This document shows, in pieces, positions 4,429 through 26,021 of a stretch of DNA of 64,000 bases. The notes beneath the pieces are model-generated. The model ran no database searches. It was not told the DNA's origin and worked only from the letters and a program-made list of their open reading frames with translations. The DNA comes from Thiobacillus sp. SCUT-2. GTDB lineage: Bacteria > Pseudomonadota > Gammaproteobacteria > Burkholderiales > Thiobacillaceae. Within the stretch, counting starts at the first letter, position 1, and each line of letters opens with the position of its first letter. Location of the stretch: contig NZ_CP141769.1 in the NCBI RefSeq assembly GCF_035621355.1, forward strand, positions 620,001 to 684,000, in the 5' to 3' direction. The translations under genes were made by a program, and so were the position numbers.

Positions 4429-5079
4429 TCAGACCCCCATGCAGACCGTGTAGGCAGTGGAGTCGACGATGCTGGCGGTGGCGACCGGTGCGCCGGCGGG
4501 GCTCGTGACGGTGCCGACCATCAAGGAGCCGGTCGCGGTGTTGCCGTCGTCCAGTTGAGTGTCGAGCTGCTTGGCATACTTGCCCAGTATGCTGCCTGAG
4601 CAGATGAAATAGGTCCCGTTCATCCCCGTGAACGGGGCGGTGCTCTGGATGCCGACGATGCCACCTACCGCGTTGCGTTGTTGAAAAGTCGATGCAGTGA
4701 GATCAGTGGCCCCGGGGGCGAGTCCTGCCATCCGCACATGTTGCCAAAAGAGAACGGAATTCGAGGATGAGGCCCCATTTGGCGCGTCATCCCAATTGCC
4801 TCCGATTATGCCGTCGCCGTCCCCGTTTGTTGCCGAGGCGCCAACGTGTGTCTGCGCGGCATTGTCATCACCCGGGAGCGCCCTGAATTTGTCCTGATAG
4901 CCGTAGATGAACACCGGGACATTGCGGAAATCCGTGGCGAGATTCTTCACGCGGGCGCTGTTGATCAGTTCCTGGCCCTTGAGGATGCCGCCGAGCAGCA
5001 GGCCAATGATGACCAGGACGATCGCGATCTCGATCAGGGTGAAGCCCGACTGGCGTCGCGCGAAGTGGGGGTGCGGCAT
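4429..5079 (-). CDS. Type IV pilin-like protein (prepilin), monocistronic
   Basis: The 216-residue prepilin has leader MPHPHFARRQSG and the cleavage/methylation site G12|FTLIE with the conserved glutamate at mature position 5. The hydrophobic alpha-1N helix (IAIVLVIIGLLLGGI) follows. The globular part has cysteines in YFICSGS and near the C-terminus (YTVCMGV), positioned for a D-region disulfide. The start was chosen by a GGAGAG ribosome site 4 bases before ATG; the longer open frame upstream runs through the promoter. It is the best candidate for the major pilin of the adjacent Msh system because it stands alone with its own strong promoter and terminator. Confidence 0.85.
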   Translation of the reverse strand: MPHPHFARRQSGFTLIEIAIVLVIIGLLLGGILKGQELINSARVKNLATDFRNVPVFIYGYQDKFRALPGDDNAAQTHVGASATNGDGDGIIGGNWDDAPNGASSSNSVLFWQHVRMAGLAPGATDLTASTFQQRNAVGGIVGIQSTAPFTGMNGTYFICSGSILGKYAKQLDTQLDDGNTATGSLMVGTVTSPAGAPVATASIVDSTAYTVCMGV

Positions 5080-5113: not shown

Positions 5114-5129
5114 TGCAATTTGCGTGCCA
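5114..5129 (-). promoter_or_regulatory. Consensus sigma-54 (-24/-12) promoter of the pilin gene
   Basis: Read on the minus strand the sequence is TGGCACG-CAAA-TTGCA, matching the RpoN consensus TGGCACG-N4-TTGCW at every defined position. The GG is at 5128-5127 and the GC at 5116-5115. Transcription should start near 5103, about 24 bases before the pilin ATG at 5079. An enhancer-binding regulator that could activate it is encoded at 17575-19005. Confidence 0.85.
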
Positions 5130-5232
5130 CCTGGCGCAAATTGCTAAACGATTGATGATAAATTACAAATTTCCATAAAACAGGTCTGGATGGGCATCCG
5201 GTTGACGAAATTGCGACGGCGGTGCGGGATTT

Positions 5233-5258
5233 CCGTCATGGGCGGCCTGCAAGAAGGG
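5233..5258. other. Stem-loop between the divergent pilin and histidine kinase genes
   Basis: GGCGGCC and GGGCCGCC arms flank a loop of 9-10 bases. It lies in the 259-base gap (5080-5338) that also holds the sigma-54 promoter. No U-tract follows, so it is not an obvious terminator. It may be part of the histidine kinase leader or a protein-binding site. Confidence 0.4.
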
Positions 5259-5338
5259 CCGCCTACTCCATTTCCTCCAGGCAATGCCGTTAGCAAGGGC
5301 ATGCCGATCGTCTCCCTGTCCGAACTGCATTCGCATCC

Positions 5339-7075
5339 ATGACCGAACGTACCGAAACGGTGCCCGGGCGGGCCTGGCTGCCGGCGCTCGCAAGCCTTTT
5401 CACGCGCGTGGCGCCAGGCCGCTGGCTGGCGCTGATGCTCCTCGCCCTGCATGTGGCCGTGGTTTACGACGCGGATCTCTCGGTGACCCGTGCGTTCCTG
5501 CTCGCGCACTATGGCCTGTTCCTGCTCTGGCAGCCGCTGGTGCGCAGCGAGGCGCGCATCGAGCCGCGCCTCGCGCTGCCGGTGTTCGCGATGGCGGCGC
5601 TGCTGGTCCTGGTCGACAGCACCTGGGTCATGGCCCTGTGGCTCGCGATCCTGGCCGGCCTGGTCGGCGCGGTGGCGGCGTCGCAGAACGCGCGCAGCCA
5701 GCACCTCGCCTACCTGCTCGCGCTGGGTTATCTGCTCGCCTTGCTGCTGGCATGGGTGCTGCCGCAGAGCCTGGGTGGCACCTCGCTGCCGGAAGAACTC
5801 CGGGCGGCCGTGCGCTATGGCTTGCCCGTGTTGCCGCTGGCGATCCTGTTCCTGCCCGGCGGCTGGCAGCGCACGGCGTCGTCGACGCTGGACTTCATCT
5901 ACGGCCTGATGCTGTCGCTGCTGATCGTGGTGATGGCGCTGGGCGTCTTCGCCGTGGTGGCGATTGCCAAGGTCAGCTATGCCTGGGCGCTGGTGCAGAC
6001 GCTGCTGGGCATGGCGGCGCTGCTGCTGGCCTTGTCCCTGCTGTGGAATCCGCGCGCCGGCTTCGCCGGCCTGGGCCAGGTGACGTCACGCTATCTGCTG
6101 TCGGTCGGTCTGCCGTTCGAAGGCTGGGCGCAGCGGCTGGCGACCCTGGCCGAGCGTGAGCGCGATCCCGAATCCTTCGTCCGCGATGCGCTTGCCCGCC
6201 TCGACGAGCTACCCTGGATCCGCGGCGGGCACTGGCAGGCCGCGCGCGGCGAAGGCAGCTTCGGCGAGCCGGCCGCGCATCGGGTCGACCACGCGTTCCA
6301 TGGCCTGTCGCTGACCTGGTATTCGGCGCGCCCGCTGACGCCGGCGCTGGCGCTGCACGTGCGGCTGCTGTCGCAGCTACTCGGCTATTTCTATGCCGCC
6401 AAGGTGCGCGAGCAGACGCTGCGCGAGCAGGCCTACAGCCAGGCGATCCACGACACCGGCGCGCGGCTGACGCACGACGTGAAGAACATCCTGCAGTCGC
6501 TGAAGACCCTGCTGGCCGCCGCGGACGTGTCGACGCCGGAAGACAGCGAACGCCTGCTGGCATTGATGAAGCGCCAGCTTCCGCAACTGGCGACGCGGCT
6601 GTCGCAGACGGTCGACAAGCTGAAGCAGCCGGCCGAGATGGACGTCGCGCATGTCCCCGCGCAGGCCTGGTGGGCGGCCTTGCAGACGCGCTACGAGCAC
6701 GACGAAGTGCGCTTCGTCGGGGAGGAGCTGGACGACACGCCCTTGCCGCAGGATCTGTTCGACAGCGTGGCCGACAATCTCCTGACCAACGCCCTGCGCA
6801 AACGGCAGGGCCAGCCGGATGTCGCCGTCGAAGTCCGCCTGGCGCTGCATCCGCTGGTGTGCCTGACGGTGACCGACAGCGGCGCCGCCGCGCCCGAGCA
6901 TGTGGCGCGCAACCTTTTCCAGAGTCCCGTCGCGTCGGATTTCGGGCTCGGCGTGGGCCTCTACCAGGCGGCGCGGCAGGCAGCGCGCACGGGCTTCCGG
7001 ATGGAACTGCCGGAGAATCGCCCCGGCCGCGTGACGTTCAGGCTGCAGGCTACGGATTGCAGTCCGAACCCGTAG
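5339..7075 (+). CDS. Membrane-bound sensor histidine kinase of the pilus locus
   Basis: The 578-residue protein has about seven hydrophobic segments in residues 20-250 and then a soluble linker. The kinase core has an H-box at LTHDVKNILQSLKTLL with His379, an N-box at DNLLTNALRKR, and a short glycine region (DFGLGVGLYQ) for ATP binding. The layout resembles PrsK-type kinases that pair with sigma-54 regulators. The likely partner is the regulator at 17575-19005, since no other two-component protein is nearby. The gene is on the opposite strand to the pilus operon and its last 26 bases overlap the 3' end of the pseudopilin gene. The signal sensed is unknown. Confidence 0.85.
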   Translation: MTERTETVPGRAWLPALASLFTRVAPGRWLALMLLALHVAVVYDADLSVTRAFLLAHYGLFLLWQPLVRSEARIEPRLALPVFAMAALLVLVDSTWVMALWLAILAGLVGAVAASQNARSQHLAYLLALGYLLALLLAWVLPQSLGGTSLPEELRAAVRYGLPVLPLAILFLPGGWQRTASSTLDFIYGLMLSLLIVVMALGVFAVVAIAKVSYAWALVQTLLGMAALLLALSLLWNPRAGFAGLGQVTSRYLLSVGLPFEGWAQRLATLAERERDPESFVRDALARLDELPWIRGGHWQAARGEGSFGEPAAHRVDHAFHGLSLTWYSARPLTPALALHVRLLSQLLGYFYAAKVREQTLREQAYSQAIHDTGARLTHDVKNILQSLKTLLAAADVSTPEDSERLLALMKRQLPQLATRLSQTVDKLKQPAEMDVAHVPAQAWWAALQTRYEHDEVRFVGEELDDTPLPQDLFDSVADNLLTNALRKRQGQPDVAVEVRLALHPLVCLTVTDSGAAAPEHVARNLFQSPVASDFGLGVGLYQAARQAARTGFRMELPENRPGRVTFRLQATDCSPNP

Positions 7076-7763
7076 GACAGACGCGGGCGATCAGGTAGCT
7101 TCGCGAGGCCCAGGCGGCCAAATCGTCGAATTCCCCGCTGGCCGAGTCGGGCTTGGTCGGCGAACGGCTGATGTAGATCAGGTTCGTGTTGAGGTTTTCC
7201 GTTTCGTCGAGTCCACTTGGCGCCGCGAGGGTGTTGCCGTTGACGTTTCGCGCGCCCCACCCGTTGGGGCCGTGGGATACGAGCACGAACACGACGTCCT
7301 TGGCGACGTCCGGATTCGTCTTGTCGCAGGTGTGCGTGGTGCACACGGCGAGCATGTCGGGGAACACGGTGCTGGCCGAGAATCCGCTCGAGGTGTCGGC
7401 AAAGGCCGAGATGACGGCGTAGCGCAGACGGTTGCCCCAGGCGTCCTGCGGCGCGGTGCCCAGGTCGACCCATGGCAACAGGCCGTGCTGGGCGGCGCAA
7501 CTCGTGCCGACGCGATCCTCGCGCCCGTCGCCGGTGGTGTCGGGGCACGGCAGGTAATGGTTGGTCGCCGGGCTGCTTGCGTAATGCGTCATGGCGTAGC
7601 CGAGAAGCGCCGTGCGCGCGTCCTCCAGCGTCCGGTTCGTCTCGGCAACCCGCCGCGCCTGGATTTGCGCCGTCAGCGGGACGGCCAGCCCGCCGATCAG
7701 GATGGTGACGATGATCAGCACGATGGCCATCTCGATCAGCGTGAAGCCGCGTGCGGTTCTCAT
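7050..7763 (-). CDS. Pseudopilin (prepilin with N-terminal methylation motif)
   Basis: This 237-residue prepilin has a very short leader, MRTARG, before FTLIE (cleavage after Gly6), then a hydrophobic helix. The globular domain has several cysteines (YLPCPDT, GTSCAAQ, VCTTHTC, RVCPTGSDC). It is the last gene of the msh-like operon and overlaps the MshK-like gene by 4 bases. Size and position suggest a minor pilin or tip subunit rather than the major pilin, but no named family is certain. Its 3' end overlaps the convergent histidine kinase gene by 26 bases. Confidence 0.8.
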   Translation of the reverse strand: MRTARGFTLIEMAIVLIIVTILIGGLAVPLTAQIQARRVAETNRTLEDARTALLGYAMTHYASSPATNHYLPCPDTTGDGREDRVGTSCAAQHGLLPWVDLGTAPQDAWGNRLRYAVISAFADTSSGFSASTVFPDMLAVCTTHTCDKTNPDVAKDVVFVLVSHGPNGWGARNVNGNTLAAPSGLDETENLNTNLIYISRSPTKPDSASGEFDDLAAWASRSYLIARVCPTGSDCNP

Positions 7764-8188
7764 GGTGCGGGTTCCTTGGCAGGGGGAAGCGGGGCCGGCG
7801 GGGTGGGCCGGACCACCTGATAGGGTTCGTAGATCCGCCCCTCGGCGCGAAGCTGGCCGGGTTTCAGGCCGGCGACGGCCGCGCCGTCGCGCGCGGCCTT
7901 GCCGTCGATCCAGCGCGTGGTGCGGCCGTCCGAGCGGACGACGATGCCGTCGTAGCGAAGCGGTGGCGGGGCCGTATCAGGCGAGGCCGGCGTGCCCGGG
8001 CCACGGGCTTCCGGGGCGCGCGCCCGGATCGCTTCGAGCCGGGCACGTTCGGCCGGCGTGAAGAACAGTCGGCCCGGGTCGGGCGGCGGCGCGGCGAGCG
8101 CGGCGCCGAGGCCCGCCAAGCACATGCCCAGGATGGCCAGGCAGCGTTCGATCATCGGCTTGCGGGAACGCGGCCGCGGGTCATTCAT
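7760..8188 (-). CDS. MshK-like small periplasmic protein of the pilus operon
   Basis: The 142-residue protein has a signal peptide or anchor (CLAILGMCLAGLGAALA). A proline/alanine-rich linker is followed by a short domain (LRYDGIVVRSDGRTTRWIDGKA) resembling the HR region of GspC/PilP-type proteins that contact the secretin. The name MshK rests on position between the MshJ-like gene and a pilin. MNDPRPRSRK was chosen as the start; it overlaps the MshJ gene by 8 bases. A second ATG, MIERC, 11 codons later, is equally close to the signal sequence. Confidence 0.65.
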   Translation of the reverse strand: MNDPRPRSRKPMIERCLAILGMCLAGLGAALAAPPPDPGRLFFTPAERARLEAIRARAPEARGPGTPASPDTAPPPLRYDGIVVRSDGRTTRWIDGKAARDGAAVAGLKPGQLRAEGRIYEPYQVVRPTPPAPLPPAKEPAP

Positions 8189-8783
8189 GGCGGCCTCCGG
8201 CGGCCGTCGCCACGGTAAACCAGAGCAGGTCGCACTGCGCACGCAGGTGCGGGCGGCTCGCATCGTCGGCGGTTGCGGCGTCGAGGCGCGACAGCTGGCA
8301 GCCCTGGACCCGCACCATGCCCGGTGCGCGCGCCTTCAGCGCCTCGAGGAATCGCAGCAGATCGGTTTCCACCAGCAACGGCAGCGTCAGCGTCATCCGT
8401 GTCTGCCCCAGCGGCAGGCCCTGAGCCAGCACGGCCGGCGCGGGCGTGCGGGGGGTCAGGCGGTAGGTCAGTCCATACAGCCCGGCATCCCGGTTGGCGA
8501 GCTGCACCGCTTCGATCCAGGCGAGCCGGTCTTCCTCGCCCACGAATCCGTGTGCGGCAAGGGCGCGGTAGTCGGCCAGATGCGAGGCGATGATCTGTTG
8601 CTGCTGGCGGCTGCGGTCGAGCTGCTGGCGAGCCTGGTTGACCGCGGTCTGCTGCTGGAGCAGCTCCGCGCGTGCCCGCGTGGCCTGGCTGAGCCCCCAC
8701 AAGGTGCCGGCGCCGGCGAGCACCAGGGCAGCCAGGAGCAGCAGCAGCGGCAGCTTGAGGACCGCAAAGGGCGGGCGCGTCAT
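8181..8783 (-). CDS. mshJ: MshJ/PilO-like inner-membrane protein
   Basis: The 200-residue protein has one membrane segment near the N-terminus (LKLPLLLLLAALVLAGAGTLWGL), a heptad-rich coiled coil (about residues 35-75) and a C-terminal ferredoxin-like fold, which is the PilO/GspM/MshJ plan. It is expected to sit in the inner-membrane platform with the MshI product. It overlaps the mshI stop by 4 bases (ATGA) and the MshK-like start by 8 bases. Confidence 0.75.
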   Translation of the reverse strand: MTRPPFAVLKLPLLLLLAALVLAGAGTLWGLSQATRARAELLQQQTAVNQARQQLDRSRQQQQIIASHLADYRALAAHGFVGEEDRLAWIEAVQLANRDAGLYGLTYRLTPRTPAPAVLAQGLPLGQTRMTLTLPLLVETDLLRFLEALKARAPGMVRVQGCQLSRLDAATADDASRPHLRAQCDLLWFTVATAAGGRHE

Positions 8784-10279
8784 GAGCGCGCCTCCCGGTA
8801 CAGCAGGCGCAGGCTGAAACGGGCCATGGGGGCGCCGGCGGCATCGGCATCGAGTGTCTTGCCCGATAAGGTGCTGCCGGAATCGGCATTCACCGGGCTG
8901 CTGCGCAGCGTCACCTCGCGCACGCCGGGCATGGACTCGAGCATGTGGATGAAGGCTTCGATGCGTTGCATCGCGGCGCGGTAATTGCCGTCGAAGGAGG
9001 CCACGGCGGCGTCGATGTCGACCCGCACGCCGTCCCCGGCGGCCGGCGAATCGTCGCTCCAGTCGAGCCTGTCGAGCATGATGTCGGGTGCGGAAAGCAG
9101 GGGCTGGCCGACCACCGCGAGAAGCCGCGCGATGTCGGGTTGCGGGGCCGTCAGCCGGCGGGCCACGGCCACGGTCTGCACGAGCTGATCCGGCGTGGCG
9201 GCGTCGGCCGGGAAGCTGCGGGCGATGGCGCGATAACGGGCGTCGTATTGCTGATGTTGCTGTGCCAGCAGGCGTGCCTGGTCGGCCAGGTCCTGGGCGT
9301 GCAGCCAGAAGGCTGCGGTGAGGCCCAGCCCCGCCAGCGCGACGAGCCCGGCGGCGCCATGCAAGGCGCGCCGCCAGCGAAATTCCGTATGGTGCTGCAG
9401 CAGTTCGGGCGGGGCCAGGTTCAACTTCGGCACTTCGCCGGCGATCGCCGCCAGGGGCGCGACTTCCGGCGTCGCGGCCAGGAAGTCGTCGGGAATGCGC
9501 AGCGCGTGCGCGAGCGCCGGCATGTCGATCAAGCGGGTGCTGAAAGCCGGGTCCGCGTTGAGCGGCGCCTGGGCGCTGTCCAACTGCCCGCTCGGGTCGA
9601 GCAGAAGCACGTGCAGACGGGCCTCGCGGGGCAGGATGCGCTGGCCGCTGAGATACAGCTGGGTCTTGGCGATTTCGTCGGCCGCGTTGCCCGGCAGCTG
9701 GGTCGGCGATTCGCCGCCGATCAGCCGCGAGAAGCGCAGCAGCCCATTGTGGTAGTAGGACAGCCGCAGGCCGCTGCCGAGGCGGCATGCCAGCAGCGTG
9801 TGCGCGGACTGCTCGCGCAGTTTTTCCAGAAGGTGCTGGTACGCCAGGGCCATCGGGGCGATGCCCGCGAGCGGAACGCGTTCGCGATGCAGGATGCCGA
9901 GCCAGGGCGTCAGCCATTCCGCGTCCGGCAGCGCGGCCAGCAGGTAGCGATCGTCGCGGCGGCCGGTCGTCTCGCGCGTCTGCCGCCATGCACCGGTGAA
10001 GCGTGTGTTGCGGAATACCTGCTTGAGCTTGCGCGCAAGCAGTTCGTCGCGGGCATGCCCTTGCACGTGCGGCATGACCTCGCACCGATAGTCCTCGTCC
10101 ACGGTGTCGGCGACCACCAGCGTGGGCAGATGGGCGTGCCGGGCGATGATCTTGCGGAACGCGCCCAGGCCTTCGGCATTGGGCAGAAAGTCGCCCAGCC
10201 AGTGCATGTGGCCGGGGCGCCAGTCGAGCACGCCGACCTGGCGCGGCGTGGCGAAGAGGAGAAGGCGGTGGCCGAGCAT
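8780..10279 (-). CDS. mshI: MshI-like protein (PilM-like plus PilN-like regions)
   Basis: This 499-residue protein combines an N-terminal actin-like region resembling PilM (about residues 1-280) with a membrane segment (about 300-325, AAGLVALAGLGLTAAFWL). A periplasmic coiled-coil and PilN-like domain follow. In type IV pilus systems these are two proteins; in MSHA systems they occur as one. The start MLGHRLLLF overlaps the mshG stop by one base (TGATG). It should bridge the cytoplasmic motor and the periplasmic MshJ/MshK complex. Confidence 0.78.
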   Translation of the reverse strand: MLGHRLLLFATPRQVGVLDWRPGHMHWLGDFLPNAEGLGAFRKIIARHAHLPTLVVADTVDEDYRCEVMPHVQGHARDELLARKLKQVFRNTRFTGAWRQTRETTGRRDDRYLLAALPDAEWLTPWLGILHRERVPLAGIAPMALAYQHLLEKLREQSAHTLLACRLGSGLRLSYYHNGLLRFSRLIGGESPTQLPGNAADEIAKTQLYLSGQRILPREARLHVLLLDPSGQLDSAQAPLNADPAFSTRLIDMPALAHALRIPDDFLAATPEVAPLAAIAGEVPKLNLAPPELLQHHTEFRWRRALHGAAGLVALAGLGLTAAFWLHAQDLADQARLLAQQHQQYDARYRAIARSFPADAATPDQLVQTVAVARRLTAPQPDIARLLAVVGQPLLSAPDIMLDRLDWSDDSPAAGDGVRVDIDAAVASFDGNYRAAMQRIEAFIHMLESMPGVREVTLRSSPVNADSGSTLSGKTLDADAAGAPMARFSLRLLYREARS

Positions 10280-11484
10280 CACAGCGGCATGTTCCCGATG
10301 AGGTCGTAGACCGGCAGCAGCACCGACACCAGGATGCCGCCCAGCACGAGGCCGAGGATGGCGGTCAGCATCGGCTCGAGCACGCGCAGGCCGTTCTCGA
10401 TCGAATCGAGCACCTCGCGGTTGTAGAAGAACGTGACATTGTCGAGCGCTTCGTCGAGCGCGCCGGTCGTCTCGCCGACGCGCAGCATGCGGATCACCAG
10501 CGGCGGGAACAGCGCCAGCGACTGGAAGCTCTCGGACAGCCCGCGGCCGTCCGCGATCTGCTGCCCCGCGCGCCGCAGGCCGGCGGCAATCACGCGGTTG
10601 CCGGCGATCAGTTCGCAGGCACGGAGCGCCTCGAGCACGGTGACGCCCGAACGGTACATCATCGCCAGCGTGTTGGTGAAGCGGGACAGCACGATCTTCT
10701 GGACGATCGGGCCGACGATGGGCAGGCGCAGCTGGGTGCGGTCCCACCATTCCCGCCCGGCTTCGCTCTTCCGCACCCACAGCGGCAGCCCCACGCTGAT
10801 CGCCAGCACGACGAGGAGACCCAGCAACCAGTAGGAGCGAAGCGCATTCGAGACCGCCATCAGGACGAGCGTCGGCATCGGCATGGCCACGCCCATCGTT
10901 TTGATCAGGCCCAGGACCTGCGGCACCAGGTAGACCAGCAGGAACACGATTGCGGCGCCGACGACGGCCAGAACCATCGCGGGATAGATCATCAGCCGCT
11001 TGGCTTTCGCCGCAACTTCCTCCTGCCACTTGAGCGACTCGGACAGCCGCTCGAAGACCGCATCGAGCAGGCCGGTCTGCTCGCCGGCGCGCACGCTGTG
11101 GACGAACACGGCGCCGAAGACCGAGGGGTGCGCCGCCAGCGCCTGCGACAGCACCTTGCCGCCCTCGAGGTCTTCCAGGAGCGCGGTCAGCACGTCGCGG
11201 AAACCGCGCTTCTCCATGCTGTCGCGCAAGTCGCGCAGGCCCTCGAGCAGGGGAATGCCCGCGCGCGTGATGTAGCGCATGTGGATGCAGAAGGTCACCA
11301 GGTCGCGTCGGGTGACGCGCTCGCGACCGGTCGGTGCGTATTGCCGCGACAGCTCCGACAGCGTGACGAGGTCGAGCCCCATGCGCTTGAGGCGCAGTTC
11401 GAGATCGACATCGTTGACTGCCGACAGCGTACCCCGGACGGTACGGCCGGTCTGGTCGATCGCGCGGTAGTCGAAGAAGGGCAT
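10279..11484 (-). CDS. mshG: MshG, GspF/PilC-family inner-membrane platform protein
   Basis: The 401-residue protein has two T2SSF domains, each with a cytoplasmic helical bundle. Three main membrane stretches are seen, around AMVLAVVGAAIVFLLVYLVPQ, LLGLLVVLAISVGLPL and the C-terminal ILGLVLGGILVSVLLPVYDL. The FFDYRAIDQTGRTVRGTL opening and GIPLLEGL are typical family features. It couples ATPase motion to pilin insertion. A 106-base gap separates it from mshE, the only sizeable gap in the operon. Confidence 0.92.
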   Translation of the reverse strand: MPFFDYRAIDQTGRTVRGTLSAVNDVDLELRLKRMGLDLVTLSELSRQYAPTGRERVTRRDLVTFCIHMRYITRAGIPLLEGLRDLRDSMEKRGFRDVLTALLEDLEGGKVLSQALAAHPSVFGAVFVHSVRAGEQTGLLDAVFERLSESLKWQEEVAAKAKRLMIYPAMVLAVVGAAIVFLLVYLVPQVLGLIKTMGVAMPMPTLVLMAVSNALRSYWLLGLLVVLAISVGLPLWVRKSEAGREWWDRTQLRLPIVGPIVQKIVLSRFTNTLAMMYRSGVTVLEALRACELIAGNRVIAAGLRRAGQQIADGRGLSESFQSLALFPPLVIRMLRVGETTGALDEALDNVTFFYNREVLDSIENGLRVLEPMLTAILGLVLGGILVSVLLPVYDLIGNMPL

Positions 11485-11590: not shown

Positions 11591-13288
<1,698 letters not shown>

Positions 13289-13297
13289 CGCGGGCGC

Positions 13298-14464
13298 CTA
13301 TCGAAGCGACTGGAGTTGCTGCACGCGGGTTTCGGCCTGGGCACGATCGAAGCGATGCGCGCCGCTGCCCGCGAGCGCCTTCTGGTAATACGTCAGCGCG
13401 CTGGGATACTGGTGCAGTTGATCGAGGCTGACGGCGAGGTTGAAGGCGTAGTCGCGGTTGCCGGGCGCGCCCCGGTAGGCCTCGAAGTAGGCTGCCTGGG
13501 CCTCGCTCCAGCGCCCCTCGCCGGCGTAGAGGTCGCCGAGCGTCTGGTACAGCTGCGGGCTCGGGTCGCGGTCGAGCAGGGTCTTCAGGCGGCTTTCGGT
13601 TGCCTGGCCGTCGGCGCTGCCCAGCAGGTCGAGCAGGGCGGCCTGTGCGACCGCATTGCGGGGATCGATGTCGAGCACCTGGCGATACAGGGCCTGGGCG
13701 TCGGCGTCGCGATTCTGCGCGCTGGCGATCACCGCCAGGCCGAGCAGGGCGTCCGGATTGCGCGCATGGGCCGCAGCCTGCCTATACAGGCGCTGCGCGT
13801 CGCTCAAGGCGCCACGCTGATACGCGGCGTAGGCCTGGGCCAGCAGCGTCGTCTCGGCGTCCGGCCGGAACACCGGCGCGCCGATCGCCGCTGCCGTGGC
13901 GGCGCGCGGGGCGGGCTCGGCCGCGCTCGCGCGCGGCGCAGGTGCATGGCCGGGGTGCGCCGCCGGTGCGGTCGTGGCAGGGGCGGTCGTGGGCTGCGCG
14001 GTCGAGTCGAGCGGAGCCGGCGTCGTCGCGCGCGGGACGGAAGGCGACCCCGGCGCGGAGGGTTTCGGCAATGCGGCGGGCACACCGGGCAGGACGGGCG
14101 GGGCGGGCTCCGCGATGCGGGGCGATGGCGGCTGCTGCGGTGCCGTCTCGACCGGCTGCAATGCGAAGTAGAGATAGACCCCGTAGCCGAGCGCAATGAT
14201 TGCGGCGACGACGGCGGTGAGTGGTACCAGCGACAAGTGCGGCAAGCGCAGCCGAAAGCGGGGGGGCGTACCCGCCGTGGCGTCGCTGCTGCCGAACAGC
14301 AGGCCGGGGGGCTCCACCCATTCGCGCGCCTTCGCGGTACCCGGAACCGCCGGTTCGAGTTCGAGATCGCCCTCGATGCGCAGTTCCGGCTCGGCCGTGC
14401 CGCTCCCCCCGCGCGCGGGGTTTGCCGCCTCGGCCTGCTTCAGGGCCTTGAGCAGCAGGCTCAC
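13298..14464 (-). CDS. mshN: MshN-like TPR protein
   Basis: The 388-residue inner-membrane protein has a cytoplasmic N-terminus of about 80 residues, one membrane segment (LTAVVAAIIALGYGVYLYFA) and a long Pro/Ala-rich linker. At least four tetratricopeptide repeats cover about residues 210-388. The opening MSLLLKALKQAEAA is characteristic of MshN and related GspB-like proteins. In MSHA loci MshN sits between the secretin and ATPase genes, as here. It probably links the cytoplasmic motor to the periplasmic secretin. Confidence 0.8.
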   Translation of the reverse strand: MSLLLKALKQAEAANPARGGSGTAEPELRIEGDLELEPAVPGTAKAREWVEPPGLLFGSSDATAGTPPRFRLRLPHLSLVPLTAVVAAIIALGYGVYLYFALQPVETAPQQPPSPRIAEPAPPVLPGVPAALPKPSAPGSPSVPRATTPAPLDSTAQPTTAPATTAPAAHPGHAPAPRASAAEPAPRAATAAAIGAPVFRPDAETTLLAQAYAAYQRGALSDAQRLYRQAAAHARNPDALLGLAVIASAQNRDADAQALYRQVLDIDPRNAVAQAALLDLLGSADGQATESRLKTLLDRDPSPQLYQTLGDLYAGEGRWSEAQAAYFEAYRGAPGNRDYAFNLAVSLDQLHQYPSALTYYQKALAGSGAHRFDRAQAETRVQQLQSLR

Positions 14465-14489: not shown

Positions 14490-16250
14490 TCATGGCGCGC
14501 TCCGCGCGGTGGGCAGCAGGCGCTGGAACTGCCGCAACTCCTCGCTTTCCAGCGTCGGGTTGGAAACGACGATGGGGCGCAGGAAGATCACCAGCTCCGT
14601 CTGGTTGTTCATGCGCTCGTGCTGGCCGAATACGGCGCCGATGCCTTCCGGGCGGGACAGAACCGGCAGGCCGTCGCGCGCATTGTTGCTGTCGTCCTGG
14701 ATCAGGCCGCCGAGAATGACGGTCTGGCCGCTGCGCACCTGCAGCAGCGATTCCATCTCGCGCACCTGGATGACAGGAATGGAGTTTTTGACGCCTCCGG
14801 CTTTAAGATCGGGATTGGGGTCGTCTACGGCCCCCACCTTGCGTGAGATGGTGGGACGCACGGTCAGCGACACCATGCCGTTCTCGTTGATCTGCGGCAG
14901 CACCGACATCACGATACCGACTGGCACCGTATGGGCGGTCGTCGTAAACGTAGTTGTCGTGTTGTTGGCATTCTGGTTGGTGTCCGCCTTGAGCGTGAAA
15001 TACACCAGATTGTCGACCACCTTGAGCAGGGCGGTCTGGTTGTTCAGCGCCATGAGTTTGGGGCTGGACAACACCTTGGTCTTGCCGAACGATTCCAGCA
15101 GGTCGATTGCTGCCGTGAAGCCGTTGTTGCCGGAATTGGTGTAGGTGGCCTGGATAAAAGGCGACAGCGCCCCCGCCAGCGCACTGGCGCCGCCGCCTGC
15201 GGACGTGGTGATCTTCCAGCCGGTGGTGCCCTGCAGCGCTTTCGACCAGTCGATACCCGCGCGGTACTGGTCCTTCAGCGTCACTTCGACGATGGTCGCT
15301 TCGATCAGCACCTGGCGTTGCGCGGACTGCATCACGCGGTCGAGGTATTGCTGCACCAGTTCCTGCTGGCGCGCGGTGCCGAGCACCGTGACCGTGCCGG
15401 CGACCGGGTTGACGGCAACGTCGTATTTCCCGTCGCCGGACGGCCGGTTGGCGAACGCCGCGTTGAACAGGCTGGCGGCGCCGGGGCCGGCCTTGCTCGC
15501 GGCCTCGGCCTGGGAGACCCGCTCGGCGCGCTCGGCCTTCTCGGCCTCCAGCTGGGCGGCCCTTTCCTCGGTGCTCTGGGTGACGGCGCGCGTGCCGGCG
15601 AGGATGGTGCGGATGTTGTCGGCGAGCACCGCCCACAAGTCGTTGTTCGAGCGGCTGGCGACCGTGGTGGTCGAGGAGTTGCCGCTCGTCGCGCCCGGCG
15701 CGAGGCCGGAGGTGCCTGTGCCGATGTTGCCGACGCCGGTGCTGGCGATCTGGGCCGCCACGCCGACGCTGGAGGTGGTGTCGCGGGCGACGTTGACGTA
15801 GTTGACCGCATAGGTCTTGGCGTAGGGGGTGTCGGGCATGATCGACACCGTGCGGCCGTTCATCTCGTAGCGCAGGTCGGCCTGCCGGGCGATGCGGTCG
15901 AGGATGGCGGGCAGCGGCTCCTGCACGGCATTGAGCGAGACGCGCCCCGAGATGCCGGGGTAGAGGTCGATGTTGTACTTCGTGTCGCGGGCGATCGAGA
16001 ACAGCAGGTCCTTCACCGGCACGTCGTTGACGACGACGGTGTAGGTCGGCACGGGCGGGCTCGGTTTCGGCGGCATCAGCGCCGGCACCGCCTTCACGGG
16101 CGCGGGCGGCGGCGCCACCGGCGCGGCGGCGGGGCGCGTGATATGGTCGGGGGAGGTATCGAACGCCCGCGGCGGGACGCAGCCCGCCAGCGCGACGGCG
16201 GACAGCGCCAGGCCGGTCACTATGGAGCGTTTCAACAGCGCATTCCTCAT
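14490..16250 (-). CDS. mshL: MshL, outer-membrane secretin
   Basis: The 586-residue lipoprotein secretin has a lipobox in LSAVALAGC. A secretin/TonB N-terminal domain covers about residues 70-155 (VNDVPVKDLLFSIARDT). N-domains, then the secretin barrel domain (about residues 320-575), follow; the latter includes VGIVMSVLPQINENGMVSLTV. It forms the outer-membrane pore for the pilus or substrate. A Glu/Ala-rich charged stretch (about residues 225-265) interrupts the N-domains and looks like a coiled coil. Ten bases separate it from the MshM gene. Confidence 0.92.
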   Translation of the reverse strand: MRNALLKRSIVTGLALSAVALAGCVPPRAFDTSPDHITRPAAAPVAPPPAPVKAVPALMPPKPSPPVPTYTVVVNDVPVKDLLFSIARDTKYNIDLYPGISGRVSLNAVQEPLPAILDRIARQADLRYEMNGRTVSIMPDTPYAKTYAVNYVNVARDTTSSVGVAAQIASTGVGNIGTGTSGLAPGATSGNSSTTTVASRSNNDLWAVLADNIRTILAGTRAVTQSTEERAAQLEAEKAERAERVSQAEAASKAGPGAASLFNAAFANRPSGDGKYDVAVNPVAGTVTVLGTARQQELVQQYLDRVMQSAQRQVLIEATIVEVTLKDQYRAGIDWSKALQGTTGWKITTSAGGGASALAGALSPFIQATYTNSGNNGFTAAIDLLESFGKTKVLSSPKLMALNNQTALLKVVDNLVYFTLKADTNQNANNTTTTFTTTAHTVPVGIVMSVLPQINENGMVSLTVRPTISRKVGAVDDPNPDLKAGGVKNSIPVIQVREMESLLQVRSGQTVILGGLIQDDSNNARDGLPVLSRPEGIGAVFGQHERMNNQTELVIFLRPIVVSNPTLESEELRQFQRLLPTARSAP

Positions 16251-16260
16251 CAGCGAGCCC

Positions 16261-17565
16261 TTATCCCAGTGGCAAGACTACCGCGCGCATTTTGCCGACC
16301 GTGCGCAGAAACGGCGTACCGGCGGGGGCGGGAGGCAGGGCATGCAGTGCCGCCAGGGCTGCGTCGCGGCTGGGAAACTCGCCGGCGAGGATCATCCAGG
16401 CGGGCGCGCCCTGACTCAGCCCGTGCAGCACCCGCACCGGTCGCGGCGTGGCGGCATCCAGCCCACCCAATAATACGGCTGCCTCGGCCGCTTCTTTAGC
16501 GGAAGCGATCTGGATCACGCGGGTGCCGGGCGCGGCGGTGGCCAGCCAGCGCTCGGTCTGCCGGGCCAGCTCGGTCACCCGGGCCGCCGGGTCGGCCAAT
16601 GGCGGACGGGGCGCGTCGGCGGCGCGTGCCGGTGTGGCGGGCGACGCCAGCGAGTGCGCCTGCCAGGCGACGAACGCCAGCAGCCCGAGGCCCGTCGCGA
16701 CGCCGGCCGCCAGCGCGGCCCAGCGCGGCAGCTGCCTGCCGCCCGCCGCCCGTTCCGCCGTCCGGATGTCGGCATCGCCGGCGGCGGCATCGAGGTGCGC
16801 CGGGGTGAGCGTATGGGTTTGCGCGGCGTAGGCGGCGAGCAGGGTCTTGTCGGCCAGCACGTTGATGCGGCGCGACAGGCCGCCGGAGAGCCGGGTCATG
16901 CGCGCGATCAGCGCCGGGGGAAAGAGGTCGGGGCCGCGGTAGCCCGCCACCGACAGCCGGGCGCGGAGGTACTCGGCGACCTCGTCCTGGGTCAGCGGCG
17001 AGAGGTCGAGGCTCAGCGTGACGCGGTCCTTGAGCTGGCGGATGCGCGGGTCGGCAAGGTGGGCATCGAGCTCGGGCTGCCCGAACAGCACGATCTGCAA
17101 CAGCTTGTCGGTCGCGGTTTCCAGGTTGGTGAGCAGCCGCAGGAACTCCAGGTTGTCCAGCGCGATGCCCTGTGCCTCCTCGACGAAGACGACGACGCGG
17201 CGTCCGGCCTCGTGGCGGGCCAGCAGCGTGGCGTTGAGTTGCGCCAGCCGGGCCTGGCGGCCGGTCTCGGGCGCATCGACGCCGAGGTCGGCGAGGATCG
17301 CCGCCAGCATGTCGTCGGGCGACAGCGTGGGGTTGCCCAGATAGACACTGTCGACGGTGGCGGGCAGCTGCGCCGCGAGCTTGCGGCACAGCATGGTCTT
17401 GCCGCTGCCGACCTCTCCCACGACCTTGATGATGCCTTCGCCCTGGCCGATGGCATACACCAGCGCCGCGAGCATTTCCCCGCGCTGGCCACCGGGATAC
17501 CAGTATTCGGTGTTCGGCGTGATGCGAAAGGGCGCTTCTTTCAGGCCGAAATGGTCGAGATACAC
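16261..17565 (-). CDS. mshM: MshM/ExeA-type AAA ATPase with C-terminal SPOR-like domain
   Basis: The 434-residue protein opens MYLDHFGLKEAPFRITPN, typical of ExeA/MshM, with Walker A GEVGSGKT at residues 50-57 and a Walker B region VVVFVEEAQG. One membrane segment follows at about residue 285. The last 85 residues (RVIQIASAKEAAEAAVLLGG onward, with WMILAGEFPSRDAALAAL and TPFLRTVG) resemble a SPOR peptidoglycan-binding domain. ExeA proteins use ATP and peptidoglycan binding to help place the secretin. The gene follows the response regulator gene by 9 bases. Confidence 0.85.
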   Translation of the reverse strand: MYLDHFGLKEAPFRITPNTEYWYPGGQRGEMLAALVYAIGQGEGIIKVVGEVGSGKTMLCRKLAAQLPATVDSVYLGNPTLSPDDMLAAILADLGVDAPETGRQARLAQLNATLLARHEAGRRVVVFVEEAQGIALDNLEFLRLLTNLETATDKLLQIVLFGQPELDAHLADPRIRQLKDRVTLSLDLSPLTQDEVAEYLRARLSVAGYRGPDLFPPALIARMTRLSGGLSRRINVLADKTLLAAYAAQTHTLTPAHLDAAAGDADIRTAERAAGGRQLPRWAALAAGVATGLGLLAFVAWQAHSLASPATPARAADAPRPPLADPAARVTELARQTERWLATAAPGTRVIQIASAKEAAEAAVLLGGLDAATPRPVRVLHGLSQGAPAWMILAGEFPSRDAALAALHALPPAPAGTPFLRTVGKMRAVVLPLG

Positions 17566-17574
17566 AGCGACGGC

Positions 17575-19005
<1,431 letters not shown>

Positions 19006-19029
19006 ATATCCTCCGGGTCGATTGGTGCC

Positions 19030-19044
19030 GCAACGCCTCTGCCT
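19030..19044 (-). promoter_or_regulatory. Possible weak sigma-54 promoter before the regulator gene
   Basis: On the minus strand AGGCAGA-GGCG-TTGC keeps the GG-N10-GC spacing and the TTGC of the -12 element, but differs from the -24 consensus at three positions. The GC lies about 25 bases before the GTG start. If real, the regulator would activate its own operon. It could be chance in such GC-rich DNA. Confidence 0.3.
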
Positions 19045-19189
19045 CTGTGGGCAGACTTGAATTGTCGTGCGCATGTCGGTTTTTCGACGATTGTGCCAGA
19101 GAGCCCGTGAAAGTAAAACGGGGGCGGCACGGCGGGGAGGCGCGCCGCGAGCATCCTGCTGCCGCGGCGCTGTCCGGGGGAACGGGCGA

Positions 19190-20884
19190 TCAGGTGCTGA
19201 CGGGTTCGGCCAGCACCCGCGTCCAGCCCTCGCTGCGGTCGACGGGATTGCCGAGCGCAACGAACCTGCGCTCCTGCGACGCGCCCCCGTGAAGCTGGAA
19301 GACCTTGCCCAGCGCGAAGTGGACGGGGTCGAGGATGAGGGTGGCCGGGTCGCTGTCGAGCCACAGCCCGGGGTGCGGCAGGCTGGCACCGCTGTTGTCG
19401 AAGCCGTTGACGGTATAGCCCGAGTCGACGGTGTCGTGCAGCATGACCAGCGCCGGCCTTGCCGCGAGGGTTTCGATGCCCACCGAACTGGTCTCGTCGT
19501 TGAGCCGGGACAGCCGCCGCACGATGCCAAGCCGCCATTCGTGATCGTCGTGCGACTTGATGCCGATCAGCGCGCCGACCCGCAGCCAGTCCTTGTCGCG
19601 CGTCTCGACGATCGCGCCGTAGCCGTATTCGCTTTCGTCGTGCATCACCCAGCGCTCGACGTCCGGGGAGTTCTGGAAGGCCGGCATTTTCAGTTGGGAA
19701 ACCCGTTCGCGCGTGCGGTCGGTGATGAAACCATAGACCTGGACGTCGTCCGCTTCGTTGTAATTGATGCCGATGCCATAGGGCGACACGCTGGCAGGGG
19801 CGGCGGCGGCCTTGATCTGGCCGATGATGGCATTCAGGCCGTGTGCGACGTCGAGCAGCCGCTTGACGGTCTCGCGCGGCGCACGGCGCTGTTCCCGGTT
19901 GGCCAGGGAGGCCCATTGCCGGTGCAGGTGTTCGAGCAGTTCCTGGCTTTCCGCCGTGCGGGCCAGTTCGGTGAGGCCAAGCCCGGTCGGCGCCGTGCCG
20001 TCGCGCAGGCCTGCCTGGATCTGCTGCAGCCGCTGCAGCAGGTCGGCGGTGGCCCAGAAGCGCAGGGGCTTGTCGCTGTCGGCCTTGCGTACACGGCGCG
20101 GGCCGTGGTCGGCCGACAGGTCGACGACGAAGTTGTGGACGTTGGTGTCGATGCGCTCGTCGAGCCGGAGCATGCCGTGCCAGCCGCACAGCCAGCGGTC
20201 GACCAGATCGAGCTGTCTCGGATAGAGGGTGCCCGAGTTGGCCAGGTTCAGCATCAGGATATGCAGGTAGGCCGTTTCGCAGCTGCAGTCGGCACTGTCG
20301 TCGGCGTATGCCCGCTGGGTTCGCCGCGGGAAACCGCCGGTTTCGGCGATGCGATAGAGATTGTGCAGGCGCAGCCAGAGCTTCTCGCCGGCGGGGAGGT
20401 AGCGGATCGCCCGCCATTTCAGGAGCTGGCCGAAGGTGCGGATGGCGCGTAGCGTGAGGAGGGGGATCGTCTCGTCCTGGAGGGCGCCGGCGCCTTCGCG
20501 CGACAGGTGCAGCACGAAGGTGTGGTAACCGCGCGCAATTTCCCAGTAGAGGCCGTACACGGCGTGCCAGAGCTGGCTTTCGAGCGGCCGCGACATGCGC
20601 GGATTGCGCAGGTACTGGCGCACCAGCGTGTCCTGCAGGTCACGGCACCTTTCGTCCAGCAGCATGAAGACCGCGAGGCGATCTTTCGTGTATTCCGTCG
20701 AGTTTTCGTTAAACCGCCGGAGTGCCCCGAGAATCGCTTCCTGGCACTTGAAGGCGTCGCCGATGGGCAGGGACTCGAGCCAGCGGGTTGCCGTCTTGAG
20801 ATTGGCCAGCGGGTCGTCGGTTCGCTTGCCGAAAGGCGCCAGCTGGGCGAGGCGCGAAGCAAATTTGTTTGCCAGTGAAGTCAT
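19190..20884 (-). CDS. Conserved-looking protein of unknown function (564 residues)
   Basis: I do not recognise this protein. It is soluble, with no signal peptide or membrane segment. It is rich in helix-forming sequence up to about residue 390, followed by a beta-rich C-terminal part. Around residues 445-470 the stretch RRLSR followed by NDETSSVGIE loosely resembles the RxxxR and (D/N)xSxxG motifs of PilZ cyclic-di-GMP-binding domains, but spacing and residues are imperfect. It lies between alaS (81 bases upstream) and the pilus regulator. The gene starts at MTSLANKFASRLAQ. A role in c-di-GMP response is inference only. Confidence 0.75.
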   Translation of the reverse strand: MTSLANKFASRLAQLAPFGKRTDDPLANLKTATRWLESLPIGDAFKCQEAILGALRRFNENSTEYTKDRLAVFMLLDERCRDLQDTLVRQYLRNPRMSRPLESQLWHAVYGLYWEIARGYHTFVLHLSREGAGALQDETIPLLTLRAIRTFGQLLKWRAIRYLPAGEKLWLRLHNLYRIAETGGFPRRTQRAYADDSADCSCETAYLHILMLNLANSGTLYPRQLDLVDRWLCGWHGMLRLDERIDTNVHNFVVDLSADHGPRRVRKADSDKPLRFWATADLLQRLQQIQAGLRDGTAPTGLGLTELARTAESQELLEHLHRQWASLANREQRRAPRETVKRLLDVAHGLNAIIGQIKAAAAPASVSPYGIGINYNEADDVQVYGFITDRTRERVSQLKMPAFQNSPDVERWVMHDESEYGYGAIVETRDKDWLRVGALIGIKSHDDHEWRLGIVRRLSRLNDETSSVGIETLAARPALVMLHDTVDSGYTVNGFDNSGASLPHPGLWLDSDPATLILDPVHFALGKVFQLHGGASQERRFVALGNPVDRSEGWTRVLAEPVST

Positions 20885-20965
20885 GGTGTGCGAACTATCC
20901 GGTGGTCACGATGCGCGTTTCGACGCTTTACGGCAAATTTAGCAATATCCGTACCGGGACTCCAG

Positions 20966-24278: not shown

Positions 24279-26021
24279 TCAGGAATACGAATTGTTGTAG
24301 TCGGCGATGCCGGGGTTCTGCTTGCCGACGCCGACGATCCTGGGCGAGTTCAGCTTGACGCCCTTGATGACCTGCTTGTCGCGCAGATAGGCCGACACCA
24401 CCTCCCAGATCGGCTCGCCCTGCACGCCCTCGCCGACCGGCGCCCAGCCGGCGACCTTGTAGGTCTTGTCGGCGTCGACCGGCTTGCCCTTCAGCATCAT
24501 GTTGCTGATGCGGTTGCCGATCGTCTTGGTCGGGTCGATCGTGTACTCGATGCCGCCGACGCGGACCATGTCGCCCCCCTGCTGGTAGTAGGGGTCGGCG
24601 TTGAAGAGGTTGTCGGCCACGTCTTCCATGATGCTCTTGATGGTCGCGCCGGTCATCTCGGTCAGCGTCGTCTCCGGATACGTGATCGCGGTCTGGTCCA
24701 TCAGGCGCTCCATCGTGATGGCGTCGCCCGGCAGCAGCGTGGTGCCCCAGCGGAAGCCCGGCGAGAAGGCCGCATCCGCACCCTTGACCGCCATCAGCGC
24801 GTCGACGATGAGCTGGTCCCAGGTGCCGTTGAAATTGCCGCGGCGATAGAGGAAATCGTCGGTGACCGCGAGCTTCTCGTTGAGCTTGTCCTCGTAGGGC
24901 GCGCGCACCTTCTTGATCAACGCGTCCATCCCCGGGTCGGCCGGCAGCAGGTTGGAGAACACCGGCAGCAGGCGGTACTTGTAGCTCTGGATCTTGCCGC
25001 CGCGCACGTCGAAGTCCATGACGCCGAGGAACTTGCCGTTGGACCCGGCATTGGTGACCAGCGTGACGCCCTTGGCGTTCTTGACCTGGACCGGACGCGG
25101 CACCCCGTCGTGCGTGTGGCCGCCGAAGATGGCGTCGATGCCGGTGACGCGGGTCGCCATCTTGAGGTCGACGTCCATGCCGTTGTGCGACAGCACGACG
25201 ACGACCTGGGCGCCCTTGGCGCGCGCCTCGTCGACCCACTTCTGCATGCTGTCGTCACGGATGCCGAAGCTCCAGTCCGGCACCATGTAGCGCGGGTTGG
25301 CGATCGGCGTGTAGGGGAAGGCCTGGCCGATCACGGCGACCTTGACGCCGTTCATTTCCTTCATCACGTAGGGCTTGAAGACCTGGTCGCCGAAGTCGTT
25401 GGTGACGATGTTCTGCGCGACGAAATCGACGCCGGCGTTCTTGAAGTCCTTGTTGACGATCTCCGTCACGCGGTCGGCGCCGAAGGTCGCCTCCCAGTGT
25501 GGGGTCATGACGTTGACGCCGAGCGCGATCCCGGCGTCGACCATGTCCTGGGCGTTGGTCCACAGCGAGGTCGCCGAACCCTGCCAGGTATCGCCGCCGT
25601 CCAGCAGCAGGGCCCCGGGGCGCTGCACGCGCATCCTGTCGACCAGCGTCTTCAGGTGGGCGAAGCCGCCGACCTTGCCGTAGACCTTCGCCGCTTCGGT
25701 GAAGTCGAGGTAGGTGAACGCATGCGCCTCGGCGGTCCCGGGCTTGATGCCGTAATACTTCAGCAGGTGCTGTCCGACGAGATGCGGCGGCTTGGCGTAG
25801 GCGACGCCGACGCCGAGGTTGACGTTGGGTTCGCGGAACCAGACCGGGGTCAGCTGGGCGTGGCAGTCCGTGAAGTGCAGGAAGGACACGTTGCCATGGC
25901 GCGGCACATCGTAGAAGTTGGCGGGGGCCTGGCCGGCCAGGGCGGACTTGCTGTCCAGGGCCATGCCGGATGCTGCGGCGACAGCGAGCAATTGCAGAAA
26001 CTCGCGGCGGTTCATGTGCAT
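24279..26021 (-). CDS. soxB: SoxB, thiosulfohydrolase of the Sox system
   Basis: The 580-residue periplasmic enzyme has a Tat signal (NRREFLQLLAVAAA). The metallophosphoesterase-like domain carries TDCHAQ (Asp52, His54), GGDTWQGSATS, LSHNGMD and GGHTHD metal-site motifs, and a 5'-nucleotidase-like C-terminal domain follows. SoxB hydrolyses the sulfone group from the S-thiosulfonate bound on SoxYZ, releasing sulfate. The first ATG (MHMNRREF) has GAGGAC about 6 bases before it. It is separated from soxA by a terminator and palindrome and so is probably transcribed apart from soxXYZA. Confidence 0.97.
   Translation of the reverse strand: MHMNRREFLQLLAVAAASGMALDSKSALAGQAPANFYDVPRHGNVSFLHFTDCHAQLTPVWFREPNVNLGVGVAYAKPPHLVGQHLLKYYGIKPGTAEAHAFTYLDFTEAAKVYGKVGGFAHLKTLVDRMRVQRPGALLLDGGDTWQGSATSLWTNAQDMVDAGIALGVNVMTPHWEATFGADRVTEIVNKDFKNAGVDFVAQNIVTNDFGDQVFKPYVMKEMNGVKVAVIGQAFPYTPIANPRYMVPDWSFGIRDDSMQKWVDEARAKGAQVVVVLSHNGMDVDLKMATRVTGIDAIFGGHTHDGVPRPVQVKNAKGVTLVTNAGSNGKFLGVMDFDVRGGKIQSYKYRLLPVFSNLLPADPGMDALIKKVRAPYEDKLNEKLAVTDDFLYRRGNFNGTWDQLIVDALMAVKGADAAFSPGFRWGTTLLPGDAITMERLMDQTAITYPETTLTEMTGATIKSIMEDVADNLFNADPYYQQGGDMVRVGGIEYTIDPTKTIGNRISNMMLKGKPVDADKTYKVAGWAPVGEGVQGEPIWEVVSAYLRDKQVIKGVKLNSPRIVGVGKQNPGIADYNNSYS

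Follow-up and report, generated by a model that had tools for sequence, protein, structure and literature searches.

The MSHA-type locus of Thiobacillus sp. SCUT-2

The 64,000-nt stretch of Thiobacillus sp. SCUT-2 DNA that was analysed (positions 620001-684000 of its contig; hereafter, the window) contains an MSHA-type pilus locus with homologues of MshL, MshE, MshG, MshM and MshN and a second pilin-like gene. Its assignment to the MSHA type follows from an MshL secretin that scores above its model cut-off and an MshE-type ATPase with a c-di-GMP-binding N-terminal domain. The machinery operon occupies positions 19005 to 7050 of the minus strand, with a regulator gene in first position, and a histidine kinase gene lies tail-to-tail with it and divergent from a type IV pilin gene. 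This pilin gene, described as 'stand-alone' in a previous sequence-only reading, in fact sits at one end of the pilus locus and probably encodes the major pilin of this MSHA-type system. The features of the locus are listed below.

4429..5079, minus strand: type IV pilin, 216 aa, with GFTLIE prepilin motif and ATG at 5079
5129-5114, minus strand: -24/-12 (sigma-54) element of the pilin gene, TGGCACGCAAATTGCA, a perfect match with predicted +1 at ~5103
5145..5156, minus strand: candidate IHF-like site ATCAA-TCGT-TTA, in the stretch separating enhancer from promoter; conserved in Thiobacillus
5203..5238, minus strand: putative enhancer of two 16-bp dyads, TGACGGAAATCCCGCA (5238-5223) and CGTCGCAATTTCGTCA (5218-5203), with a 4-bp gap and centre at ~-118
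5339..7075, plus strand: membrane histidine kinase, 578 aa, with H-box LTHDVKN (H379) and HATPase_c
7050..7763, minus strand: second pilin-like protein, in the operon, without a sigma-54 element
7760..8188, minus strand: MshK-like protein (by position and size)
8181..8783, minus strand: MshJ-like protein (by position and size)
8780..10279, minus strand: MshI-like protein (by position and size)
10279..11484, minus strand: MshG/PilC-like inner-membrane protein (T2SSF)
11591..13288, minus strand: MshE-type extension ATPase with c-di-GMP-binding MshEN domain (NF053729, 50.9 versus cut-off 38; MshEN, 63.9 versus 23.1 bits)
13298..14464, minus strand: MshN-like TPR protein
14490..16250, minus strand: MshL secretin (258.9 bits versus cut-off 250.2)
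16261..17565, minus strand: MshM/ExeA-like AAA ATPase with SPOR domain
17575..19005, minus strand: NtrC-type response regulator/enhancer-binding protein (D58, GAFTGA, Fis-type HTH), heading the pilus machinery operon
19074..19089, minus strand: single dyad CGTCGAAAAACCGACA, candidate autoregulatory site
19117-19090, minus strand: weak sigma-70-like promoter of the regulator operon, TTTACT-N16-CACAAT
19190..20884, minus strand: 564-aa protein, between alaS and the regulator
20941..20956, minus strand: second -24/-12 element, CGGTACGGATATTGCT, upstream of the 564-aa gene

The locus resembles the MSHA loci of Vibrio and Shewanella in its single operon with MshL, MshE with a c-di-GMP domain, MshG, MshM and MshN homologues, but differs from them in that its pilin gene stands apart, is divergent from a kinase gene and is predicted to be under sigma-54 control. 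In other lineages (L161 3432-5314 and L177 3356-5345), kinase and pilin are separated by two genes, one ABC-permease-like and the other for a ~240-aa protein, and at L093, L107 and L115 the apparent end of an ABC ATPase gene lies directly upstream of the regulator. These genes seem to form a second pair split across the locus halves, which was not seen in Thiobacillus. Elsewhere in the window, a SoxB thiosulfohydrolase is encoded at 24279-26021 (minus strand), which fits a sulfur oxidizer.

The pilin promoter and its upstream region

Positions 5129 to 5114 read TGGCACG-CAAA-TTGCA on the minus strand, exactly the RpoN consensus match that the sequence-only reading had reported. With the C of TTGC (5115) set as -12, the predicted start falls at ~5103, which leaves 24 nt to the pilin ATG, in agreement with the distance given there; a GGAG at 5089-5086, between these two points, constitutes the ribosome-binding site. 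The element is the sole exact consensus match in the window. One- and two-mismatch variants are no more frequent than chance predicts (3 found, 8 expected), so the weight rests on the exactness of the match and on where it lies. In the 3.01-Mb genome, TGGCACR-N4-TTGCW has six exact sites, compared with two for the reversed control pattern. The hallmarks of a sigma-54-dependent promoter occur together here: a GG-N10-GC element close to TGGCACG-N4-TTGCW, a putative upstream enhancer of the bEBP type, and rpoN, which has a single match in the genome (one contig; G000:617457-618896), ~2 kb before the window and within the order lptB-rpoN-hpf-ptsN-hprK. A sigma-70 promoter scan across the pilin region gave no match, and the Rfam and tRNA scans returned none.

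A scan of relatives for the element, which had been put forward as a check on the first reading, found it in all 31 Thiobacillus copies of the pilin promoter: GG-N10-GC is retained in every one, the element starts 83-89 bases before the GFTLIE codon, and the promoter alignment shows it as a conserved island whose position does not vary. Scored with a sigma-54 matrix that was drawn from general knowledge, without training on the analysed sequences, the kinase-linked pilin promoters of most other families were also high, with weaker values in G045, G046 and G058, the last of which has a truncated kinase-adjacent pilin copy with a poor -12. In a second set, comprising 44 loci beyond the close Thiobacillus group and compared with 1062 control stretches, 39 loci lay above the 99.9th percentile of the controls and 41 above the 99th. 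The element is absent before the pilin homologues of G038, G039 and G049, which lack both kinase and regulator and are the only three genomes in this control set. Near-matches are unenriched in the window, as would be expected if the match were a chance resemblance, but this explanation is extremely improbable and was rejected because the element is conserved, at a fixed position, within the genus and beyond. On sequence grounds, a real sigma-54 promoter of the pilin gene is supported.

The pilin coding sequences behind this promoter (window 4429-5079 and its orthologues in L004-L033) fall into three sequence classes at one locus. L027 and L029 share 95% identity across 360 bp spanning the promoter and N-terminus and 41% in the remaining protein, which suggests that the 3' part of the gene was exchanged behind a conserved promoter. 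Tandem pilin genes occur in L094 (292-1851), each with its own sigma-54 element, and in L090 (17-1781), where the kinase-adjacent copy is without the prepilin motif.

The alignment also revealed a second conserved block, ~100-140 bp upstream of the predicted start, which was resolved by family comparison into two TGTCG-N6-CGACA dyads, 4 bp apart and 20 bp from centre to centre. The pair in the window is a degenerate version of the consensus obtained across lineages, TGTCGAAAATTCGACA, which shares the TGT-N10-ACA form of NifA sites, and paired dyads with the same gap recur before the pilins of many lineages. Among the 11 strongest pairs across the 408,646 positions of the reference loci, nine fall in the interval that separates kinase from pilin and one at the regulator promoter. 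The last is within the kinase gene of L098 (3656-3691), ~1.4 kb from the pilin promoter; it is the sole strong pair of that locus, none being seen in its kinase-pilin gap. The block is inverted in the G058 reference locus, which is compatible with its proposed role because enhancers allow either orientation. When a pair was required to score at least 15 and to lie within 300 bp upstream of the -24/-12 element, pairs with a 4-bp gap were found in 28 of the 44 distant loci versus 1-9 for the other gaps from 0 to 11, and 16 loci had no dyad pair reaching the threshold; this set is mostly, not fully, independent of the motif definition, since some of its loci (e.g. L185 and G051) come from motif-defining genomes. 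These comparisons support the dyad pair as a putative enhancer of the bEBP type. The candidate IHF-like site between enhancer and promoter was assigned from the IHF consensus; it is clear in Thiobacillus only, and an IHF site was rejected as a general feature of these promoters. Close to the kinase start, Thiobacillus has yet another conserved block (window ~5290-5330; TGCTATCGGCATT...GGAAATGGAG when read in the direction of the pilin gene), which may act as the promoter of the kinase gene or as a further operator. No conserved sigma-54 element was found for the kinase gene.

The pilin had also been said to be switched on separately from the assembly machinery, and this is only partly right. 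The pilin gene does have its own promoter, and none of the regulator, machinery and second pilin genes has a strong sigma-54 element immediately upstream, but a second conserved element precedes the regulator-machinery operon. This element (20941..20956) is conserved in 30 Thiobacillus loci, with GGGTACAGAATTTGCT as its typical form; no strong dyad turned up in its vicinity, the 564-aa protein encoded downstream has no Pfam match, and no terminator was detected in 18960-19240. RpoN may therefore also reach the 564-aa gene and perhaps the machinery. The best-looking sigma-54 candidate before the regulator itself, TGGCACAATCGTCGAA, was rejected, being without the -12 GC and overlapping the sigma-70-like -10. 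The sigma-70-like promoter in question was not called by a simple sigma-70 scan, and the single dyad lies directly downstream of it.

The kinase and regulator and their relation to PilS/PilR and PrsK/PrsR

The two signalling proteins carry the residues that their proposed functions call for, as the sequence-only reading had held. The kinase possesses the phospho-acceptor H379, N480/N484, D513-x-G515 and G536-x-G538, all invariant among 12 orthologues, and its phospho-acceptor His and HATPase_c domain identify it as a sensor histidine kinase, with no HisKA match in Pfam. In the regulator, D58, Walker A (GESGSGKE) and the GAFTGA loop are intact and likewise invariant in 12 orthologues; the receiver Asp, GAFTGA loop and Fis-type HTH together place it among the NtrC-type bEBPs.

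The kinase lies beside the pilin and the regulator ahead of the machinery genes in the loci that were read. Among 60 relatives, regulator orthologues occur in exactly the 11 other kinase-bearing families and are missing from the other 13. In a sample of 150 genomes of the order, each with completeness of at least 95%, 55 have both proteins and 92 have neither, while the kinase occurs alone in two and the regulator alone in one (Fisher p ~2e-37, a value inflated by shared ancestry). Both are retained even where their genes are ~169 kb (G055), 724 kb (G057) or 766 kb (G169) apart, and these unlinked-gene genomes argue for a partnership. The pairing of kinase and activator, which had been proposed from a single locus, is in this way well supported by the sequence comparisons, with the proviso that linkage and co-occurrence fall short of proof of phosphotransfer. 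A regulator that activates the pilin but is served by another kinase or by none, and not by the divergent kinase, would be in keeping with genes that lie at least 10 kb apart without co-transcription and with a kinase that has no recognisable HisKA domain. This arrangement is nevertheless decidedly unlikely, given the co-occurrence counts, which include genomes with far-apart genes, and given that no kinase match adjoins the window regulator, unlike several other activators of the genome. There are about ten such other activators, one of them PilS-linked.

The last of these belongs to a canonical PilS/PilR pair elsewhere in the genome (2038315-2041151), in which the bEBP adjoins a true PilS; 6TM_PilS (PF25323) matched at 2038315 with 101 bits and weakly at 2884876, and not in the window kinase. 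In a phylogenetic tree, the window regulator falls with its orthologues in a single clade of 100/100 support that stands apart from the PilS-adjacent bEBP, and the family models and the tree led us to reject PilS/PilR as the identity of the window pair. The arrangement is similar to the control of pilA by PilS/PilR in Pseudomonas aeruginosa in that a type IV major pilin gene has a sigma-54 promoter, combined with a membrane kinase, an NtrC-type activator and TGT-type upstream sites (PMC6058289). It differs in the lack of 6TM_PilS in the kinase, in the MSHA type of the pilus, and in the position of the kinase and regulator genes, which lie at opposite ends of the pilus locus or in separate loci. 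A real sigma-54 promoter driven by the canonical PilS/PilR pair would have a genuine PilS and adjacent bEBP at its disposal, and the P. aeruginosa PilR sites, NifA-like TGT-N11 elements with GTCT nearby, broadly resemble the dyads found here (PMC6058289). We nonetheless consider such control unlikely: PilS is present in 120 of the 150 genomes, 64 of which are without a window-type kinase, so that its distribution does not explain the co-occurrence pattern; G038 (weakly), G039 and G049 have a PilS-domain match and yet no sigma-54 element before their pilin homologues; and it is the window kinase and regulator that are specific to the pilin's own locus.

The PEP-CTERM system PrsK/PrsR is encoded at 253007-256407 (PrsK at 254395-256407), and a PEP-CTERM-type protein just outside the window (L002 11275-12102; genome 611275-612102) fits its presence. 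PrsR is both the best-scoring model for the window regulator and, at 41% identity, its closest paralogue among those compared, and sigma-54 elements occur upstream of PEP-CTERM genes (PMC1569441), so that control of the pilin by PrsK/PrsR might be envisaged. This is highly unlikely, since the published 17-nt PrsR motif, with TTTACA at its end, differs from TGTCG-N6-CGACA, PrsK and PrsR sit at their own locus, and the pilin is linked to different kinase and regulator genes. The window pair is not itself PrsK/PrsR, an identity rejected on family models and tree: the regulator scores 371.9 bits against TIGR02915 (PrsR), 131 bits short of the cut-off of 502.6, and the kinase has no match to PrsK (TIGR02916). 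The two systems share a membrane kinase and a Fis-type sigma-54 activator that co-occur with a DNA motif and a sigma-54 element (PMC1569441, PMC9850573), and they differ in the regulator falling below the PrsR cut-off, the lack of a PrsK match, the enhancer, and the pilin as target.

A proposed circuit for pilin control

Taken together, the promoter element and dyad pair with their conservation, the intact catalytic residues and the co-occurrence of the two proteins, all established by comparing sequences, make it quite probable that the sigma-54 element and its enhancer work with the kinase and the regulator as a single module, which would control the probable major pilin of the MSHA-type pilus in many lineages of the order. 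The membrane kinase (5339-7075) would act as the sensor and phosphorylate the regulator upon a signal. An oligomer of the phosphorylated regulator would then bind the paired dyads (5238-5203), ~118 bp upstream of the start, and DNA bending, aided by IHF in Thiobacillus, would bring it to the polymerase. Its contact with sigma-54 RNA polymerase at 5129-5114 would open the promoter for transcription of the pilin gene (5079-4429). The signal, phosphotransfer, regulator binding and sigma-54 transcription of the pilin are thus steps that we infer, as is the 'closed circuit' envisaged in the sequence-only reading.

That a type IV pilin can be under sigma-54 control is textbook knowledge from PilS/PilR-PilA, in which PilS senses PilA. 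The sigma-54 logic of the present locus is ordinary and its class of mechanism known, whereas the two-component system is apparently undescribed. A literature search, with subscription journals largely outside its range, returned no description of this two-component system, its enhancer or its link with an MSHA pilin, and no paper on sigma-54 or NtrC-type control of an MSHA pilin. It is conceivable, though somewhat short of probable, that the pair represents a third, undescribed two-component family, which evolved separately from PilS and is devoted, in much of the order, to the major pilin of MSHA-type pili. Since kinase and pilin travel together, as do regulator and assembly machine, even where these two halves lie apart, the circuit may serve to balance pilin supply against machine capacity.

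Here, the same sigma-54 logic would serve another type of pilus through a different kinase and activator and an enhancer found across lineages. The split of kinase with pilin and regulator with machine provides a natural test of how unlinked two-component partners stay matched. A named partner, a putative binding site and a promoter are now open to testing in Thiobacillus denitrificans, which may lead to the signal by which sulfur oxidizers and related environmental bacteria turn on their attachment to surfaces.
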